From positions 498,266 through 562,265 of the forward strand of contig JAJDDD010000009.1 of the NCBI GenBank assembly GCA_029260495.1: 64,000 nucleotides of DNA, written 5' to 3'. Origin of the DNA: Phycisphaerales bacterium. Lineage in GTDB: Bacteria > Planctomycetota > Phycisphaerae > Phycisphaerales > UBA1924. The position numbers and the translations under genes are program-made. The notes under the pieces are model-generated. The model worked only from the letters and a program-made list of their open reading frames with translations, had not been told where the DNA came from and searched no databases. Within the stretch, counting starts at the first letter, position 1. Each line of letters begins with the position of its first letter. Positions 2,053 to 63,485 of this stretch are shown in pieces.

Positions 2053-3396
2053 ATGTTCAACAGAGTGCTCATAGCCAACCGAGGAGAAATCGCGCTGCGG
2101 GTGATCCGCGCGTGTAAAGAACTGGATATTGAATGCGTCTGTGTCTATTCACAGGCGGACGCGGGCGCGCCCTATCTCAGCATGGCGGATCAAGCGGTGT
2201 GCATTGGCCCCGCCGCCGCGGCTGAGAGCTATCTTGATATTCCGCGACTCATCGCGGCTGCTGAAATTACAAGCGCTGATGCGATCCATCCCGGATATGG
2301 CTTTCTCGCTGAGAACGCGCACTTTGCGGAAGTGTGCCGGGATTGTCGAATCGAGTTCATCGGCCCTTCGCCTGAAGCGATGGCCCTTCTCGGCGACAAG
2401 GTTTCCGCCAAGAATCTCGCAAAGAGCTCGCGTGTTCCCGTCTTTCCGGGTTCGGAAGGCGAGATTGACGACATCGACGAAGCGGCGCAGATCGCGGACA
2501 AGATAGGCTACCCGGTCATCGTCAAGGCGGCGGCAGGCGGCGGCGGGCGCGGTATGCGCGTGTGCAGAAATGAAAACGACCTGCGCAAGAATGTTTCAGC
2601 GGCGAGTCAGGAAGCAGAAGCTGCATTTGGCAATGGCGCCGTTTATATCGAGAAGTTTCTCGAATCTGCGCGTCATATCGAGGTTCAGGTCATCGGCGAC
2701 AAGCACGGGGATGCAGTTCATCTGTATGAGCGTGACTGCTCGGTGCAGCGGCGTCATCAAAAGTTAATTGAGGAGGCTCCGGCGCCGCACGTTGAGCCCA
2801 AGCGACGCGATGAAGTCTGCAAGGCGGCTGCCAAACTCATCAAGAAAGCTGAATACGCCGGCGCCGCTACGGTTGAGTTTTTGCTCGATGACAAGCAGAA
2901 CTTTTACATGCTGGAAGTGAACACGCGCGTGCAGGTTGAGCACCCGGTGACGGAGATGATCACCGGCGTTGATATTGTCAAGACGCAAATTCTTGTAGCT
3001 GCGGGAGAGCCTCTTCCTTTCCGCCAGCGCGAGATCAAACCGCGTGGACATGCGATAGAATGTCGGATCAATGCTGAGGATCCTGATCACAACTTCGCTC
3101 CCTGTCCCGGGCCGATTCATCGCTTCGACGTGCCCGGCGGTCCCGGCGTGCGGTTTGATTCTCATTGCGTTGCGGGGTATCGCGTGCCATCTAACTACGA
3201 TTCAATGATCGCCAAGCTTATTGTCCATGCTGATACGCGCCGAGACGCGATTCGGAGGATGGGCCGCGCTTTGCGCGAGCTAGAGATTGGCCCCATCAAG
3301 ACGACAACGCCCCTGCACCGGCGACTGATGGACAACCACGCTTTCATCGAAGGCGGCGTGGATATTCACTGGCTTGAGCGCATGTTGAAGGCATGA
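2053..3396 (+). CDS. accC: acetyl-CoA carboxylase, biotin carboxylase subunit
   Basis: ATP-grasp enzyme that carboxylates the biotin on AccB with bicarbonate. At 447 residues it matches the usual AccC length. Visible features are the N-terminal RVLIANRGEIALRVIRA signature, the glycine-rich ATP loop (KAAAGGGGRGMR), the YIEKF and RDCSVQRRHQK segments, and FYMLEVNTRVQVEHPVTE with the catalytic Glu/Asn/Arg cluster. It follows accB closely and ends 19 bases before the convergent glycosyltransferase gene; no clear hairpin terminator is seen in that gap. Confidence 0.98.
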   Translation: MFNRVLIANRGEIALRVIRACKELDIECVCVYSQADAGAPYLSMADQAVCIGPAAAAESYLDIPRLIAAAEITSADAIHPGYGFLAENAHFAEVCRDCRIEFIGPSPEAMALLGDKVSAKNLAKSSRVPVFPGSEGEIDDIDEAAQIADKIGYPVIVKAAAGGGGRGMRVCRNENDLRKNVSAASQEAEAAFGNGAVYIEKFLESARHIEVQVIGDKHGDAVHLYERDCSVQRRHQKLIEEAPAPHVEPKRRDEVCKAAAKLIKKAEYAGAATVEFLLDDKQNFYMLEVNTRVQVEHPVTEMITGVDIVKTQILVAAGEPLPFRQREIKPRGHAIECRINAEDPDHNFAPCPGPIHRFDVPGGPGVRFDSHCVAGYRVPSNYDSMIAKLIVHADTRRDAIRRMGRALRELEIGPIKTTTPLHRRLMDNHAFIEGGVDIHWLERMLKA

Positions 3397-3415
3397 TGAT
3401 TTTCTTAGGTGATCG

Positions 3416-4591
3416 TTACGCACGTCCACGCCTTACCGCGCGGTCGTAGATCTGTGAGATATCTTCGACGTAGTTGTTCCAGTTCCAGTTCTCGCGGATG
3501 TCCTGCGCAGCGTTTTGTCCCATGTGCGCGAGCTTTTCCCGGTCAGCAAGCATGTGCTCGAGCGCCTCGGTAAAGCCATCCACATCACCAACCGGAACGA
3601 GCATGCCGGAACGCCCGTGTGTGATGACTTCCGGCGTCGAGCGCAGGTCAGAAGCGATCACCGGCACGCCTGCCTCCATGCTCTCGACAATCACAAACTG
3701 CGGATCAACACTCATGTACCGGATCGGCATCAACACGCAGACTGACTCAAGAATGAGCTTTGGGAGTGTGATGCCGTCCTCGTATGGAAAGCGATAGATA
3801 TTGATATTTTCATGCCTGCGGGCGAGTTCATCAAGCCCCTCGACCTCCTTCCAGTGCGGACGGATTGCAAGATCGAAGGTCAAATCAGGGTATTTTGCAG
3901 CCAGTTGTTCGTACACAGTTTTGACGACATCACATCCGTTATTCCATGAAGGATCGCGCCAAAAAAGAACACGGCGCCGTGGTGATTCGATTGCCTCGTC
4001 TTGCACTTCTGCACGGATATTTCGCACGGCGCCATGCTTGACGATTTCGCATGGCAATCCGCTTTTCTGACACAAATCGGCGACGAAGCGAGTCGCCGTT
4101 GTCACTGCTCTATTTCTGCGCCATAGCGATCGCATGACTACTTTGGGCATTGGGATTGCGAGATTTGCGCCCATGAGGGTCGCAACCGTCGAGGTGCGCA
4201 ATCCCATGAGAGACAAGGCGCCGCCCAACATAACCGATCGTGTTTGTCCCCAGGAATGAAGCACATCCAAATCTACCTTGTGGGCAATCGACTTGATCTG
4301 CAACATCTGCCGTTGGAACCGAAGAGGGGAGACGCCTGCTTTCTGTTCGCCGGTCCGCGTATGAAATCCTCCGCGCTGGCGCGCGTCAGGAACCAAATGC
4401 AACTCAACCTCTTTTGGCAAACAATGCGGAAGCGATCGATCGTCTCCAAATTCATTGGTGATGAGATGAACTTCATGACCGGCGTCCGCAAGAAGTTTTA
4501 ATGCATACAGCGGCGCTTGAATGTGACCCGAGACATTGCTCTCGAATCCTTTCATGCCGGCCACCAGCGAGACATACGCACCGATTTTCAT
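3416..4591 (-). CDS. GT-B fold glycosyltransferase (family 4-like)
   Basis: Transfers a sugar from an activated donor to an acceptor, probably in exopolysaccharide or glycolipid synthesis. The 391-residue protein starts MKIGAYVSLVAGMKGFESNVSGHI, with an N-terminal acceptor domain including HEVHLITNEFGD and VDLDVLHSWG. The C-terminal domain holds the family E-x7-E region (IVESMEAGVPVIASD...STPEVI) and a G.SGMLVPVGD loop. It is one of two minus-strand genes with a sulfotransferase upstream, so the product may be a sulfated glycan. The specific sugar cannot be assigned. Confidence 0.85.
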   Translation of the reverse strand: MKIGAYVSLVAGMKGFESNVSGHIQAPLYALKLLADAGHEVHLITNEFGDDRSLPHCLPKEVELHLVPDARQRGGFHTRTGEQKAGVSPLRFQRQMLQIKSIAHKVDLDVLHSWGQTRSVMLGGALSLMGLRTSTVATLMGANLAIPMPKVVMRSLWRRNRAVTTATRFVADLCQKSGLPCEIVKHGAVRNIRAEVQDEAIESPRRRVLFWRDPSWNNGCDVVKTVYEQLAAKYPDLTFDLAIRPHWKEVEGLDELARRHENINIYRFPYEDGITLPKLILESVCVLMPIRYMSVDPQFVIVESMEAGVPVIASDLRSTPEVITHGRSGMLVPVGDVDGFTEALEHMLADREKLAHMGQNAAQDIRENWNWNNYVEDISQIYDRAVRRGRA

Positions 4592-56380: not shown

Positions 56381-57319
56381 TCACTCCAATTGATCAAGCT
56401 CGTTCAGCACCGCCTGCCACGTCGCGCGATGGTGAATCAACATTGGAAACACCTGCCGAACCACACCGTCCTTATCAATCAGATACGTCGTCACACGCTC
56501 ATACGCTGTCGTCTGTTCGCGATTCAGATCCGCGACGATCTCCAACGCACCGCCCGTTTCCAATCCATCAAGAATCTTCGCGTGCGATTTCAAATCCTTA
56601 TCTTCCTGAGCGATTGCAATCACGACGGCGTTGCGCTTCTCAAACTCACCTGACATCTCTTGCAGCTGAACCAGCTGCGCCCGGCAAAATGGTCACCAGA
56701 ATGCGCGATACGTCGTCACAAGAATATTCTGCTCACCCAGATAATCATCGAGGGCAAGCGTGCTCCCGTCGGCCCGCGGCAACACAATCCCCTCCGCCCG
56801 ATCGCCTATATTCAGCGTGTTATCGATTCCCCAATCCGAAACGTTCGCTTGCTCAGTCGACGAACTGCTCACCCCGGCCCTCACCGGCAACTCAACCCGG
56901 CGCCGCAGGAAAAACGCATCCTCTTCATCCGTTTCGCTCACATACGCAACGACATTCAGCGAAATCGTTTCACCAGCCGTTGGCGCCGACTCCAGCGTAA
57001 ACCGAACACTATTGTTGCCCGGATCGATCACCCGCTCATAAGGCTCTTGCAAAAACTCATTCCGCGCTAGTTCTTTATATTCAGTCAAATACCGCCCGGA
57101 CAAATGCACCGACGCCGGCGCCTCGACCTGCAAGATCGGTTTCGGCACACCGGCGCCGATCGACCATCCGTCAGCCAACTCAAGCGATATCTGAACTTCA
57201 TACTCCTGCCCAACCGCCAACTCGCCGGTCGGCATGGAAGCGCTCAACTTCATCACATCTCCCGACGGCGCCGCGCCAATCACACTCGCAATCGCCAACA
57301 CTACAGATGAAAATAACAT
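56381..57319 (-). CDS. exported peroxiredoxin/thioredoxin-like selenoprotein (in-frame UGA = Sec209)
   Basis: Read through UGA at 56695-56693 the gene gives 312 residues; otherwise it appears as two adjacent frames. The ATG at 57319 begins a signal peptide (MLFSSVVLAIASVIGAAPSG). Residues about 25-160 look like a DsbD-alpha-like beta domain. The C-terminal thioredoxin-fold domain holds TYRAFW-U209-PFC212RAQL, a UxxC motif where AhpC/TSA and PRX-like2 proteins have CxxC or C..C. Downstream sequence (VIAIAQEDKDLK, YLIDKDGVVRQVFP) is peroxiredoxin-like. A SECIS-like hairpin follows the UGA by 14 nt. It lies downstream of the deiodinase-like gene in the Sec locus. Confidence 0.85.
56662..56678 (-). 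promoter_or_regulatory. bacterial SECIS element of the peroxiredoxin-like selenoprotein gene
   Basis: On the minus strand GCAGCTG (14 nt after the UGA) pairs perfectly with CAGCTGC, leaving the loop GUU; counting one fewer base pair the loop is GGUUC. Position, size and G-containing loop fit bSECIS rules that recruit SelB. Confidence 0.78.
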
Positions 57320-57423: not shown

Positions 57424-58665
57424 TTACTCATTCGATCCGCGCCGACCCCCGTTTCTCTTCCTCGCGCGTTCCCCTTCTTCAGTGTCCGTTGCATTCTGCA
57501 TCTCGTCCATACGCTTGCTCATCATTTTCGCCATCTCATCCGGAATCACAAATCCGCCATTCCGATCGCGCTCCAGCACAACTGTGTACTCCTGAGACAA
57601 CGGCTTGCACCATCCTTCTTCATCGTGGCAGGCAAAATAATGCGCCTTGATCGTCAGTGCGTCACCCGTCTTCGCTCCCGCAATATCAACCAGGAACTCA
57701 CGCGGATCAATATCCGCATCCACTTCAACCTCCGGGGCGCTCAAAACTTCAGGTGTCACCGTCACCCCGGCCGACGCCTCAATCTTCACCTCAATCGATT
57801 TTACCAAGTTGTTCCAATGCACTCCATACAGCGGATCAAGCATGAAGCGCAGATAGAGTTGCCCCTCTCCATGGGTGAGCAACTCCCGCCCGGCTTCCGC
57901 ACGCAGCTTCGCATAGAACGGCTCGTTGTCATTCGTGAACACCGGCTCAACCTTCACCGGCGACATCCGACCCGCCCTCTTCAATCTTGGCACAACACCG
58001 CTCGCCGCCGCCTTCAGGGGTGGCGCTGATGGCATGTCCAGATCGTCAACCATCGTCGGATGTTCAACCGCCCCAACCAGTTGCTCAAGATCCGCCCGCA
58101 GCGCCGTAGGGCTGCTCCAATCGCGCCGCCCCACGATCACATTGTTCTCATCAATAATCCACTCAGAGTTCGGCGCATTCCCCATCGCCGTCTTCAGAAC
58201 ATTGTCTTCCGTATCCACGAGCCAATGAAACCGGGTGCCCAGCGTCCGCTTTGCCTCCGCCACATGCATCAGCCGTTCGTCCATCGTGTACGGAGTCACA
58301 TACCCGTTCCACTCCGGATGCGCCAGCGCCTTATAGACATAATAAAAACCAACACCCTTATCAGAATAATCACGCTCAATGGTCTCCAACCTGGAGACAT
58401 TCCGTAGGAACGGCGGTCATGTCAGACAGCCGAACACAATCACCTTGTGTTTCCCCGGCAACGCTCGCAGTCGAATCCGCTCGCCCTGATCGTCAAAAAT
58501 TTCTACATCCGCAAGGGTTTCCCCAACTTTGGGCGCATCGTCCCCAAACATTTTCGGCATACCCTGCCGCCGCTGCGGTCCGTCCTGCGCTGACGCCGCC
58601 GCCGTCGCCAGCGCCAGTCCAAAAACCGTCCCGATCAGCGCCACCGCTCGTATGCGTCCATTCAT
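57424..58665 (-). CDS. exported deiodinase-like thioredoxin-fold selenoprotein (in-frame UGA = Sec83)
   Basis: Start at the ATG at 58665, which follows AAGGAG and opens a signal peptide (VALIGTVFGLALATAAASAQ). Reading through UGA at 58419-58417 gives 413 residues. The motif FGC80LTU83PPFLRN matches the (S/C)xxTUPPF active site of iodothyronine deiodinase-like proteins. The following FYYVYKALAHPEWNGYV corresponds to the deiodinase YI.EAHPSDGW region. C80 and U83 form a CxxU pair. The C-terminal half (about 230-360) resembles DsbD-alpha and contains YFACHDEEGWCKPL. Without readthrough, automatic callers split it at 58417. Substrate is unknown; bacterial members need not act on iodothyronines. 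Confidence 0.87.
58382..58398 (-). promoter_or_regulatory. bacterial SECIS element of the deiodinase-like selenoprotein gene
   Basis: On the minus strand GUCUCC-AGGUU-GGAGAC begins 18 nt after the UGA. Flanking AAU/AUU extends the stem by three more pairs across a bulged C. The loop AGGUU is like that of the E. coli fdhF element (AGGUCU). Confidence 0.85.
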
Positions 58666-58820: not shown

Positions 58821-58916
58821 CGGGAGTGGATGGGAATCGAACCCACCCAGGGTCTGTCTCCAGACCCCACAACGGGTTTGAAGCCCGCGGCCGCCACCAG
58901 GCGTGCTGACACTCCC
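58821..58916 (-). tRNA. selC: tRNA-Sec (UCA anticodon)
   Basis: 96 bases. The minus strand starts GGGAGTG and ends CACTCCC-G; anticodon arm GCGGG-CUUCAAA-CCCGU has anticodon UCA; the long variable arm pairs GGGTCTG with CAGACCC around GAGA; T-arm GUGGG-UUCGAUU-CCCAC. The size, extended acceptor/T stack and UCA anticodon are diagnostic of tRNA-Sec. It begins only 15 bases after the selA stop, so is probably processed from the sel transcript. No CCA is encoded; a TTTT run follows. Confidence 0.96.
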
Positions 58917-58931
58917 AATCAACCCCACACG

Positions 58932-60404
58932 CTACCCGCCTCCTCGCCTCCCAGCAAAATGCGCGGCGGCGTGTCGCACAGCCTCCACCACCTCCGCCTC
59001 TTCATCTGCAAAAACACTCCGAAGGTCGAGCAGCACCATCCCCTCATTCGCCCGTGCAATCACACCAGGCTTCTGCCAGCGCAGCTGCTCCTGTGATTCA
59101 CTCTCAGACGCCCCCGCAAGGCGCAACGCCACCGCAAAACTCTCCACAACTCGAGCGGGCGTTGACCCGCCCCCAACATGTGCCTCCGACGCTCGCACCT
59201 CAGCCAGCTCCACACCCTGAATCTCACTCAACTTCGCGCACAGCGCTTCCGCCCGCGCCCTCAAATCCTCAACAGGCGCCAACATCAGCATCGCCGGAAT
59301 CTCCCGCATCGCCCGCTCATGATCCATGTGCACATCAAGCGTCGCTGCCAGCGCCCCCAACCGAAGTTTGTCTACACGCAGAGCCCGCATCAAAGGATGC
59401 TTCATCACCCGCGCAACCTGTTGTGACTTCCCAACAACAATCCCGCATTGCGGCCCGCCCAGGAGCTTATCCCCGCTGAAAAACGTCAAGTCCGCCCCCG
59501 CCCGCACCGAAGACTCCGCGTCCGGCTCCTCTCCGGGAACTGCTCTCCCCATCCGCCGCGTCAGCGCGCCCGACCCAATATCGTGCAGCACCGGAACATC
59601 ATGCTGCTCACCAATCTCCACCAACTCCTCTATCGAAGCTTCTGCAGTGAACCCCTCAATCCGGTAATTCGACGCATGCACCTTCAGGATCGCGCCCGTC
59701 TTTTCATTAATTGCGTCAGCAAAATCGCTCGCCCTCGTCCGGTTTGTCGTTCCAACCTCGCGCATCACCGCCCCCGCCGCTTCAATGACGCTCGGCAGCC
59801 GAAAACTCCCGCCAATCTCAACCAGCTCCCCGCGAGAAACAATCACCTCGCGCCCATCAGCCAGCGCCGCGACACACAGCATCAACGCCGCAGCGTTGTT
59901 GTTCACCACCGTCGCAGATTCCGCTCCTGTCAGCCGTCGCAGCGATTCCACCACCAACTGCTCCCGCCGCCCGCGCTTGCCGCTCACAAGGTCCAGCTCC
60001 ACCGGCGCATACCGACCCGCAATCTCGGTCACGGCCCGCACCGCTGCATCCGCCATCGGCGCCCGCCCGAGCCCCGTATGAAGCAAAATCCCCGTTGCAT
60101 TAATCACCCGCACCAGCTTCCGCAGCGCCGCCCGGTCCAGCGCCGCCTCCGCTGCATCCGCAAGCCCACCACGCGAAACATCACAAACCCCAGCTCCTCC
60201 AGCCCCATTTTGTACAATCCGCGCCCGCTCCGCTTCAACCGCCTTTCGTGCTGCGTCCACAATCACCCCCCGCCCAACACGTTTTTCCCAGCCTCGCTCA
60301 ACAAGCTCACCAGCCAGCGCGTCCACCGAAGGCAGCGCTCGCAGCATCTCGCTCCGCGCATCACCACCAGCGCAAACATCCTTGCCATTGTTCTCATGTT
60401 TCAT
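58932..60404 (-). CDS. selA: L-seryl-tRNA(Sec) selenium transferase
   Basis: PLP enzyme that turns Ser-tRNA-Sec into Sec-tRNA-Sec using selenophosphate. Start taken at the ATG of MKHENNGKD, after a GGGAG site, giving 490 residues, near the family length. Landmarks are VINATGILLHTGLGRAPMA, VNNNAAALMLCVAALADGREVIVSRGELVEIGGSFRLP, and FFSGDKLLGGPQCGIVVG with K313 as the PLP lysine. It overlaps the selB stop by 11 bases and is followed by tRNA-Sec. The N-terminal region is preceded by a spurious upstream extension to 60464. Confidence 0.96.
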   Translation of the reverse strand: MKHENNGKDVCAGGDARSEMLRALPSVDALAGELVERGWEKRVGRGVIVDAARKAVEAERARIVQNGAGGAGVCDVSRGGLADAAEAALDRAALRKLVRVINATGILLHTGLGRAPMADAAVRAVTEIAGRYAPVELDLVSGKRGRREQLVVESLRRLTGAESATVVNNNAAALMLCVAALADGREVIVSRGELVEIGGSFRLPSVIEAAGAVMREVGTTNRTRASDFADAINEKTGAILKVHASNYRIEGFTAEASIEELVEIGEQHDVPVLHDIGSGALTRRMGRAVPGEEPDAESSVRAGADLTFFSGDKLLGGPQCGIVVGKSQQVARVMKHPLMRALRVDKLRLGALAATLDVHMDHERAMREIPAMLMLAPVEDLRARAEALCAKLSEIQGVELAEVRASEAHVGGGSTPARVVESFAVALRLAGASESESQEQLRWQKPGVIARANEGMVLLDLRSVFADEEAEVVEAVRHAAAHFAGRRGGG

Positions 60405-62355
60405 CCGCAATCTCCCGCGACAACGCTGCTTGAGGCGCCCGCTCACCCAGCACACGTGCATCACCTCGACGCTTCGTCACTCGCTCCCGGTCAAGATACT
60501 CGCACAGCGGGATCACATACTTCCGGCTTGTATCCAGAACATCACGAATCTCACTCACCGTGAGCTCACCCCGCTCGCCAATCGCCTCCGCCACACGCCG
60601 CTTCATCTCAACAACCCGCACCCCCGCCAAGTGATGCCCCCCTCCTATATGCACCAAATCTCCAACCCCAACACACAGCTCCAAAAGCTCACGCACCACC
60701 CCCTCGCGCGCGCCCAACATCCGACACAACGATCCAGCGTCCGGTGGACGAAAGCCAGCCTCATCATGCGCACACAAAATCCGCTCCAACAAGTCTCTCT
60801 TCGCTCCATCAAGTTTCGGCGCCCGCTCCGCCAGCCCAACCCGCCGCCCATCACTCGCTAGCTCACCATCCACAACCAGACGTTCAATGACCGCGGACAT
60901 GAGCCCCGCATCCAAATACGAGAGCCTCCTCGCCACCGCGGACACCTCAAAAAACGGCGTCATCATCGAAGAATCATGCAGCTTCTCCAACTCCCGCTTC
61001 ACCCGCCTCCCGATTTCATCCGCAACATCCCGATGCAGCAATCGCCTTCGAACCCCTTCACCACCACCAACTTCCAAGAGCTCGCCCGCAGAGACCAATT
61101 CCTCGGTCACCCGATCAGCCTTCGCCAAATCAAGCTGCGCATCCCGCGCAAGGTCAAATAGCTCCCAAGGCGCTGTCCCATACAGTCTCGCCGTCGCGCT
61201 CGCTCGCTCGCTTGCGCATTCACTTTCAACCTCGCCCAATCGTAGCGCAAACTCTGCTTCGCCTCGCTTGATGCGCACTCTCGTTGACAACAGCACCCGA
61301 CCTCCGCCGATCGTCATCACCGGCGACTCACTGCGCACAACGAAAGGCTGTCCCCCCGCTGCAACCACCGCCTCCGCGCACACAAGCTGCGCAGCCCCGC
61401 TCTCCCCCGGCTCAATCACGGCTCCCTCAAGCAGCCGAACCCGCGCCATCACCTCGCCCGTCCCCAGGTGCAGCCGAACCCGATCCCGGTGTCGAATCCC
61501 GCGCTTCGCATCCTCCAGTGCGCACAGCCGAACCGTAAGCAATCGCGTTGCGCGCATGAATCCGGGAGTCGCAAGCTCAAACCCGCGCCGCACATCCTCT
61601 CGGCTCACCCCCGCCAGTTGAATCGCCGCCCGCTGCCCTCGCACAACCCGCTCGGCCATTTGCCCATGCGCCTGCAAGCCGCGCACGCGCACCGTCGTTC
61701 CTGCAGGCATCAGTTCAAGCTCATCACCAACATGAGCCTCCCCAGCCCACACGGAACCCGTCACAACTACGCCCACCCCTTCGCGCACAAACGCGCGATC
61801 AATCGCCAAACGAAACACACCGCCGGTCGCGCGCTCTGCAACATGCGCACAAACCCGGCTGATCCCATCGCGCAGCTCTTCAACACCCGCTCCCGTCGTC
61901 GCCGACGTGCGCACGATCGGCGCCCCCTCCAGAAACGTCCCCTGGAGTCGCTCGCGCATTTCAAGCTCAACCAGATCCAGCCAACCCTCATCAACAAGAT
62001 CACACTTGGTCAGCGCCACCACCCCATGCTCAAGCCCCAGAAGCTCAAGAATCGCCAGGTGCTCAACCGTCTGCGGCATGATCGAATCATCCGCAGCGAC
62101 CACAAAGATCACCACATCAACTCCCGAGGCCCCCGCCAGCATGTTGCGCACAAACCGCTCATGCCCAGGCACATCCACAACGCCCATGCACACGCCCGGC
62201 AGCTCAAGCTGCGCAAAGCCGATGTCAATCGTCATCCCGCGCTTCTTTTCCTCAGGCAAACGATCCGTATCAACCCCGGTCAGCGCGCGCACCAGCGCCG
62301 TCTTCCCGTGATCAATATGCCCCGCCGTTCCGAGAATCAGCCGTCGCTTCGCCAT
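60394..62355 (-). CDS. selB: selenocysteine-specific elongation factor SelB
   Basis: 653 residues. GTPase motifs GHIDHGKTALV, DVPGHERF and TKCDL are followed by EF-Tu-like domains 2-3 and a C-terminal run of four winged helices that bind the bSECIS hairpin. The last one ends with VLDTSRKYVIPLCEYLDRERVTKRRGD, the diagnostic SelB C-terminus. It delivers Sec-tRNA-Sec to UGA. The stop overlaps selA by 11 bases and the gene follows selD by 62 bases. Confidence 0.97.
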   Translation of the reverse strand: MAKRRLILGTAGHIDHGKTALVRALTGVDTDRLPEEKKRGMTIDIGFAQLELPGVCMGVVDVPGHERFVRNMLAGASGVDVVIFVVAADDSIMPQTVEHLAILELLGLEHGVVALTKCDLVDEGWLDLVELEMRERLQGTFLEGAPIVRTSATTGAGVEELRDGISRVCAHVAERATGGVFRLAIDRAFVREGVGVVVTGSVWAGEAHVGDELELMPAGTTVRVRGLQAHGQMAERVVRGQRAAIQLAGVSREDVRRGFELATPGFMRATRLLTVRLCALEDAKRGIRHRDRVRLHLGTGEVMARVRLLEGAVIEPGESGAAQLVCAEAVVAAGGQPFVVRSESPVMTIGGGRVLLSTRVRIKRGEAEFALRLGEVESECASERASATARLYGTAPWELFDLARDAQLDLAKADRVTEELVSAGELLEVGGGEGVRRRLLHRDVADEIGRRVKRELEKLHDSSMMTPFFEVSAVARRLSYLDAGLMSAVIERLVVDGELASDGRRVGLAERAPKLDGAKRDLLERILCAHDEAGFRPPDAGSLCRMLGAREGVVRELLELCVGVGDLVHIGGGHHLAGVRVVEMKRRVAEAIGERGELTVSEIRDVLDTSRKYVIPLCEYLDRERVTKRRGDARVLGERAPQAALSREIADET

Positions 62356-62417: not shown

Positions 62418-63485
62418 CTACACACGAACGACCACACCCCGGTCACCGGGCTGCACCACATGCCCCACCTTGGACGCCCCCGCCACCCCCGCATTCTGTA
62501 GCGCAGCGATCAGATCCCCAGCCCGATCCGCAGCAATCGAAATCAAGAGCCCGCCTGATGTCTGCGGGTCAAACGCCAGCCGCCCGAGCGCCGAATCCGC
62601 ATCGCCAGTCACTTCGACTTTTCCTGCAAGATGTGCCCGGTTCTCTGCTACAGCTCCCGCGAGGTTCTCCTCATTCTGAGCGAGTTGCACCACATCGGGA
62701 AGCAGGGGGGCGCTCGCCATCTCAAGCTTAATCGTCACGCCACTCGCCTGCGCCATCTCGTGCGCATGCCCCGCGAGTCCAAAGCCCGTAATGTCCGTCA
62801 TCGCACTGGCCCCCACGTCAATCGCTGTGCGCGACGCAATATCGTTGAGCTCAACCATACTCGCGCAGGCGGCGTCATAGCTCCCCGCCGAACAGCGATC
62901 TCCTCGATGCGCCGTCGTGATCACCCCTGTCCCAATCCGTTTCGTCAGAACCAGCGTATCACCCGCCCGCGCCCCAGCGTTGGTTCGCAGCTTGTCCGGA
63001 TGCACAGTGCCCGTCACCGCGATTCCGAACTTCACCTCTTTGTCACGCACAGAGTGTCCACCGATTACGATTGCTCCGGCTTTTTCAACCCGCTCGGCGC
63101 CCCCGCGAAGAATCGCAATCAAAACCTCTGTTTCAAGCTCGCCTTCCGGAAAACCCACAAGGTTCAGCGCCGTCACCGGCGTGGCTCCCACTGCGTACAA
63201 ATCCGAAAGCGCGTTGGCCGCAGCGATCTGCCCGTAGACAAATGGATCATCAACAATCGGCGCGAAGAAATCGACCGACTGCGCAATCGCCAGATCGTCG
63301 CGCAGCTTGTAGACGCCGGCGTCACCAAAATGCTCCACGCCCGAAACCACATTCATATGGCTTTTCAGATTGAGCCCCTGCACAACCTGCGCAAGGGCGG
63401 ATGCAGACAGCTTGCCCGCTCAGCCGGCGCAGTTCGCATAGTTGAGAAGGCGCCGTTGTCTGCCGGACACTGCCCGTTCGTTCAT
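62418..63485 (-). CDS. selD: selenide, water dikinase, itself a selenoprotein (in-frame UGA = Sec22)
   Basis: Makes selenophosphate from selenide and ATP. Starting at the ATG at 63485 (MNERAVSGRQRRLL...) and reading UGA (63422-63420) as Sec gives 355 residues. The active-site loop reads NYANCAG-U22-AGKLSA, aligning with GAGCGCK of E. coli SelD so that U22 replaces Cys17; Cys19 is Gly here. The remainder is a typical SelD/AIR-synthase fold (IAQSVDFFAPIVDDPFVYGQIAAANALSDLYAVGATP, TDITGFGLAGHAHEMA, DPQTSGGLLISIA). Ordinary annotation would begin at 63383 and lose the catalytic residue. It is the first gene of the sel locus. Confidence 0.93.
63375..63397 (-). promoter_or_regulatory. bacterial SECIS element of selD
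   Basis: On the minus strand CCCUUGCGC pairs with GUGCAGGGG (9 pairs, two G-U) around the loop AGGUU, starting 22 nt after the UGA. Same loop sequence as the deiodinase-like gene. Confidence 0.83.

Follow-up and report, generated by a model that had tools for sequence, protein, structure and literature searches.

A predicted deiodinase-like selenoprotein fused to a DsbD-alpha-like domain in the sel cluster of a Phycisphaerales bacterium

The gene and its surroundings

The window analyzed in the present study is a 64,000-nucleotide stretch of contig JAJDDD010000009.1 (assembly GCA_029260495.1) from a Phycisphaerales bacterium, the relevant features of which are listed in Table 1. The gene of interest runs from an ATG at 58665 to a TAA at 57424 and consists of 82 codons, a TGA, 330 sense codons, and the stop. 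The sequence around the TGA at 58419-58417 reads GCLT-TGA-PPF, which agrees with an earlier note that had placed this codon within a TUPPF-type site. The frame after the TGA is also open, as claimed in that note, the 331 codons of which include the stop. On its own strand, the gene is immediately preceded by the genes for selD, selB, selA, and tRNA-Sec, and it starts 155 nt beyond the last of these.

Table 1. Positions of the genes, domains, and sites discussed in the text (window coordinates).
Feature	Position	Strand	Basis
Two-domain selenoprotein gene (predicted), 413 residues	57424..58665	-	Signal peptide, deiodinase-like thioredoxin-fold domain (GCLT-Sec-PPF), and DsbD-alpha-like C-terminal domain
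Probable signal peptide, residues 1-27, ending ASA-QDG	58585..58665	-	Translation read by eye
Deiodinase-like thioredoxin-fold domain, about residues 44-200	58066..58536	-	Pfam and NCBIfam matches at 44-179; model and fold search
TGT, Cys80 of C-x-x-U	58426..58428	-	Cys in 27/27 fused copies; non-Cys in 35/35 unfused relatives examined
TGA read as Sec83	58417..58419	-	TGA in 24/27 and TGT/TGC in 3/27 fused copies
Predicted bacterial SECIS hairpin, GUCUCC-AGGUU-GGAGAC, 18 nt after TGA	58382..58398	-	Synonymous-shuffle test, 23 Sec genes
DsbD-alpha-like domain, residues 223-374	57544..57999	-	hhalign 97.3% against 27 DsbD_N domains
Cys346 and Cys353 (C-x6-C), candidate relay pair	57607..57630	-	Pair in 26/27 fused copies
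Second thioredoxin-fold selenoprotein gene (predicted), TYRAFW-Sec-PFC, TGA 56695-56693	56381..57319	-	AhpC-TSA 63.7 bits; homologue in L083
selC, tRNA-Sec (UCA)	58821..58916	-	ARAGORN; Rfam RF01852 68.9 bits, cut-off 47
selA	58932..60464	-	TIGR00474 493.7 bits, cut-off 267.9
selB	60394..62355	-	TIGR00475 357.8 bits, cut-off 242.25; SelB winged helix
selD with in-frame TGA 63422-63420 (NCAG-Sec-AGK)	62418..63485	-	TIGR00476 321.5 bits, cut-off 125, part after TGA; read-through

Regarding the second thioredoxin-fold gene, its family, to which we refer as WUPFC, was found in 15 of the 248 genomes of the class, and all 15 members carry exactly one TGA. The N-terminal region of this protein has no assigned family. 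Ordinary ORF calling starts selD after its TGA, by which the active site is lost. SelD, the two-domain protein, and the WUPFC protein constitute, as predicted from sequence, a three-selenoprotein sel cluster.

A comparable arrangement was found in a genome of the same family as the window (G1258), in which selD-selB-selA-selC is followed, in this order, by a TGA-bearing homologue of the two-domain gene, a ResA-like gene (FASW-TGA-AGC), and a WUPYC gene. The ResA-like gene, at 3042-4424 on the reverse strand of locus L083, reads FASW-Sec-AGC and has a C-x6-C stretch near its C-terminus, similar to that in the domain described below. Among the matches listed, the window genome and G1258 are the selA carriers of the window's family. 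Since the neighbors of the fused gene in five other loci (L031-L035) are ordinary and differ by locus, adjacency to sel genes is limited to the window and G1258.

Reading of the TGA codon

Copies with the same architecture, 27 including that of the window, were collected from one contig scan, three genome searches, the first class search, and one fetched locus. Two further loci (L073 and L074), the sequences of which stop short of the active site, are outside this number, and several loci are duplicates (L001, L036, L051, and L063 of the window, L034, and L033 genes; L086 and L087 of L038 and L003). The Sec codon is TGA in 24 of the 27 copies and a Cys codon in three. In a core alignment of eight proteins, the seven homologues showed 38-54% identity to the window protein on both sides of the TGA. 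In the tree, the proteins of the window and G1258 are sisters (86/89), and the Cys forms fall in two places. Plasmids and phages were also searched, and no match was found.

Standard ORF calling splits the gene into two ORFs, which is the outcome expected if it were truncated by a real stop or were a decaying pseudogene. Against this reading, the TGA occupies the same codon in 24 copies, no second stop interrupts any of the 23 Sec-form genes from the TGA to the gene end, sel genes adjoin, and the hairpin described below is conserved at synonymous sites. An open frame of approximately 330 codons has a chance of approximately 1e-4 at the stop density of the window. The only sign of decay came from a single paralogue (L080, genome G1078), in which a TAA precedes the Sec TGA by 13 codons; this paralogue is perhaps decaying, or the TAA may be a sequencing error. 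We thus regard truncation or decay of the window gene as extremely improbable.

The earlier note had also described a perfect hairpin after the TGA. The predicted hairpin occupies nucleotides 22-38 counted from the T of the TGA and has six perfect pairs. In a single gene, the fold is weak (z of -0.40 over 60 nt); 12 of 300 synonymous shuffles of the two-domain gene were as low, as were 3 of 300 for selD and 22 of 300 for the Prx-like gene, and the corresponding figures for the hairpins of L083 were 164, 118, and 57 of 300. Since the single-gene fold was no better than that of shuffles, a synonymous-shuffle test was performed across the family. The mean MFE of the 23 Sec genes was -8.40, against -3.51 (sd 0.46) for the shuffles, none of which was as low in 500, and a chance hairpin was rejected on this result. 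The claim of a perfect hairpin therefore stands, weak singly and strong across the 23 homologues.

In a structure that was chosen after seeing the 23 sequences, 114 of the 115 hairpin pairs form, whereas 85.8 were expected, and a G is present in the apical loop of all 23 Sec genes. Codon choice within the stretch is uniform (Val GTC in 22/22, Ser TCC in 9/9, and Pro CCC in 14/14, and then Ser AGT in 7/7, Gly GGT in 7/7, and Glu GAG in 23/23). Nearby codons vary: the invariant Asp, 16 codons after the TGA, is encoded by GAT in 12 genes and GAC in 11, and four codons are used for the invariant Gly at 21 codons after the TGA. The stem of many copies is interrupted midway by a C-A mismatch and may in this respect resemble the bulged fdhF SECIS of Escherichia coli. 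The same stretch in the three Cys genes gave -7.0 vs -4.34 for shuffles (5 of 500 as low) with other pairings, and the pairs of the named hairpin formed in 5 of 15 cases vs 6.3 expected; that these genes also fold better than their shuffles speaks against a simple reading. By the shuffle test, the predicted hairpin is kept at synonymous sites across the 23 Sec genes.

The distribution of selA was then compared with that of the two forms. Cys homologues in genomes lacking sel genes, for which the earlier note had proposed to look, were found: 18 of the 21 genomes with a Sec form carry selA, whereas it was absent from all three with a Cys form (Fisher p 0.0099). G1258, in which selA is present, was kept out of the 18/21 because it had been found through selA. 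The three Sec-form genomes without visible selA are G1188, G1078, and G1025. Since selA is common among carriers anyway, the association is weakened; it was found in five of the six genomes with a standalone C-terminal domain only and in both of those in which the fused gene is incomplete. In the window's order, 15 of 121 genomes have selA. Among genomes with unfused Sec forms, G355 has no visible selA and G332 and G420 have it. Considering the alignment of Sec and Cys forms, the hairpin, and the sel genes, which bear out the claim of a selenoprotein, it is almost certain, as predicted by comparison, that the TGA at 58419-58417 encodes selenocysteine.

Two side observations were made on the homologues. 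EF-hand-like DxDxDG repeats were seen by eye in the extra N- or C-terminal tails of many fused proteins (L034, L052-L055, L064-L069, and others). Beside the Cys-form gene of G634, an 841-residue protein (L086, 8772-11297, forward strand) combines EF-hands with a T4_deiodinase domain that scores strongly (102.9 bits).

The two domains and their cysteine pairs

The N-terminal domain was described as deiodinase-like in the earlier note. Pfam matches of the window protein to Redoxin, T4_deiodinase, and AhpC-TSA are all under their cut-offs. The T4_deiodinase (PF00837) score is 21.1 against a cut-off of 27, which the homologue in L083 passes with 29.0, and the score for NCBIfam NF038285 is 44.6, under the curated cut-off of 250. 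An AlphaFold model of the domain had a pLDDT of 85.1 and a pTM of 0.81. In a fold search with this model, the best match was DIO2 (Z 18.4, 158 residues aligned, rmsd 2.6), followed by DIO3 (17.7); the next row had a Z of 16.6, and ResA/TlpA types had 16.1. In Foldseek, the first rows were the C-terminal part of Mycobacterium tuberculosis DipZ (E 5.2e-11, TM 0.36), and DIO2 ranked 14th. The description is thus supported by the fold and the TUPPF motif, the window protein being below the Pfam cut-off.

Animal DIO2 and DIO3 are the closest solved folds by Z score, and the TUPPF site and an AHP motif are common to them and the window protein. DIO3 has a Cys at -2 from Sec and DIO2 has none there, whereas the window protein has its Cys at -3; the window protein also differs in having a probable signal peptide and a second domain and in lacking the membrane anchor and the Glu pair before His. 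A true reductive dehalogenase, which would correspond in bacteria to the deiodinases and have aromatics carrying iodine or another halogen as substrates, would account for the deiodinase core as the best structural match and for the TUPPF site and AHP motif in common with mouse DIO3. However, the two Glu residues before the conserved His are replaced, IYIEEAHP in DIO3 corresponding to VYKALAHP in the window protein, and these residues matter for deiodinase catalysis. Thyroid-type deiodination by the window protein is unlikely, and we consider a dehalogenase of any such kind to be very improbable.

Among the proteins examined, the CxxU pair proposed in the earlier note proved to be confined to the fused ones: all 27 fused copies have Cys at -3 from the Sec or Cys, whereas none of the 35 unfused relatives does, the residue in these being Ser or, in three, Ala. 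These 35 relatives are fetched loci; the first class search gave 46 places, of which 30 were taken. Since the 27 copies are related, the acquisition of this Cys may be one event. At the Sec position itself, the unfused relatives have TGA in 24, Cys in four, Ser in three, and Glu in four. The four with Glu (L016, L021, L026, and L029; GSLTEP or GSATEP) are possibly redox-dead relatives.

Regarding the C-terminal domain, a profile of 34 such domains was compared with 27 DsbD_N domains from the window's phylum (27 of 30 loci were used; L115, L118, and L119 were left out). hhalign gave a probability of 97.3% and an E-value of 5.8e-11 for one comparison, and the hhalign and HMMER E-values of the DsbD_N comparison refer to tiny target sets. 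Both Cys pairs are aligned, and the GVHWNN region is placed opposite the GWHIYW region of DsbD. Pfam DsbD_N (PF11412) had no match in the window's own domain at E 1 and matched three of eight members weakly, with a best E-value of 0.012. A PDB sequence search with the C-terminal profile yielded only a ribosomal protein (E 0.32), and no Foldseek match with the domain reached E 0.001. In the fold search, the rows were Ig-like sandwiches, the best of which was a BBSome subunit (Z 9.1), with nDsbD at 7.4, and DsbD-alpha did not stand out among them. By profile comparison, the domain is a divergent member of the DsbD-alpha type (PF11412-like), as predicted from these alignments.

The second Cys pair reported in the earlier note is present in the C-terminal domain, but its spacing is C-x6-C (C346/C353) and not C-x5-C. 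Of the 26 copies with the pair, the spacing is six in 19, four in six, and five in one. The remaining copy (L072, genome G1025) has no C-terminal Cys pair, and its sequence diverges after DPREFLLD in all three frames. A standalone form, consisting of a leader and a DsbD-alpha-like domain, was observed in six Acidobacteriota genomes (L057-L062); in the two loci examined, it adjoins a MatE gene, which is the gene before, and no thioredoxin-fold gene.

The C-terminal domain may have a structural or substrate-binding role with a static disulfide, Sec83 and Cys80 being reduced externally by DsbD or a thioredoxin-like protein. Its fold matches many Ig-like domains equally well, the Cys spacing varies (x4, x5, and x6), and unfused deiodinase-like selenoproteins do without such a domain, all of which are in keeping with this role. 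In contrast, the Cys pairs align with the redox pair of DsbD_N, and the fusion coincides with the extra Cys at -3. We therefore regard a static disulfide as rather unlikely and a redox role for the domain as the better reading.

Proposed electron path and relation to known selenoproteins

Sequence and model comparison shows a UGA that is predicted to be decoded as Sec by the adjacent sel genes via the hairpin, a CxxU site in a deiodinase-like fold, and a DsbD-alpha-like domain. The gene very probably encodes an exported selenium-containing enzyme that is related to deiodinases in shape and fused to what appears to be its own electron-delivery domain. Since CxxU and the DsbD-alpha-like domain occur in one chain, and the extra Cys is found in fused proteins only, a relay is suggested; the electron transfer between domains proposed in the earlier note gains indirect support from the DsbD-alpha-like nature predicted for the C-terminal domain, with Cys pairs aligned with the DsbD redox pair. 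We consider it likely that the exported protein would be a self-contained relay, in which a feeder domain and a selenium catalyst share one chain. Counting against this reading are the fold search and the Pfam miss for the C-terminal domain of the window protein, the copy lacking the C-terminal pair (L072), the MatE neighbors of the standalone domains, and the three Sec-form genomes without visible selA.

In E. coli, the DsbD-alpha domain is the part through which DsbD supplies electrons to clients of the thioredoxin fold on the outer side of the cytoplasmic membrane. The genome of the window encodes a full DsbD of 665 residues, made up of DsbD_N, DsbD_TM, and thioredoxin domains; a further DsbD_N gene, separate from it, adjoins a redoxin gene. 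We infer every step of an electron path from DsbD to C346/C353, to C80/Sec83, and to the substrate, as follows. Sec83 would attack an oxidized substrate outside the cytoplasm, which could be a peroxide or else an envelope protein bearing a disulfide or sulfenic acid, and a Cys80-Sec83 selenenyl sulfide would form. The C346/C353 dithiol of the same chain would reduce this bond, and DsbD would recharge C346/C353 with electrons from the cytoplasm. That the substrate is a peroxide or an oxidized envelope protein is a guess.

Bacterial deiodinase-like selenoproteins entered the literature with the Sargasso Sea survey (PMC1088965), also appear in another study (PMC2398784), and are listed in a 2026 review with the motif UxxC in its table (PMC13188914). 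These proteins (PF00837; NF038285) have in common with the window protein a thioredoxin fold, T-Sec-P-P-F, and Sec and Cys forms; the window protein adds the Cys at -3 and the fused DsbD-alpha-like domain. DsbD-alpha (PF11412), which has TlpA/ResA/CcmG-type partners, has a Cys pair and a W-N region that align with the window domain, whereas the alpha-like domain of the window is C-terminal to its presumed client in one chain and is unrecognized by Pfam. Other Sec fusions are similar in principle: in the GOS fusions (PMC2398784) and in TsoB (NF045694), a rhodanese/DsbD fusion-like selenoprotein in a table of the 2026 review (PMC13188914), a domain with Sec, of the thioredoxin fold or related to it, is joined to one that bears Cys; the catalytic domains of both differ from that in the present study.

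A fusion of deiodinase-like and DsbD-alpha domains is not described in the relevant passages of PMC2398784 or PMC13188914, and no paper on a deiodinase-like/DsbD fusion was found in the open-licence literature, a scope that leaves subscription papers and preprints outside. The kind, a bacterial deiodinase-like selenoprotein, is already known, and the variant fused to a DsbD-alpha-like domain appears to be new to this literature. It is also a case in which standard annotation would cut one long protein in two at the Sec codon.

The role of bacterial deiodinase-like selenoproteins has been a question since 2005 (PMC1088965). The fusion names a likely electron donor and compartment for such a protein, and its function becomes testable because of this. 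Whether the present protein represents a new selenoprotein architecture, with a deiodinase-like CxxU domain that receives its electrons from a DsbD-alpha-like domain of the same chain, and with a gene that in the window's lineage shares the sel operon with those of one or two more Sec proteins of the thioredoxin fold, appears to us evenly balanced; if so, the Sec machinery in this lineage may serve mainly the redox of the cell envelope.
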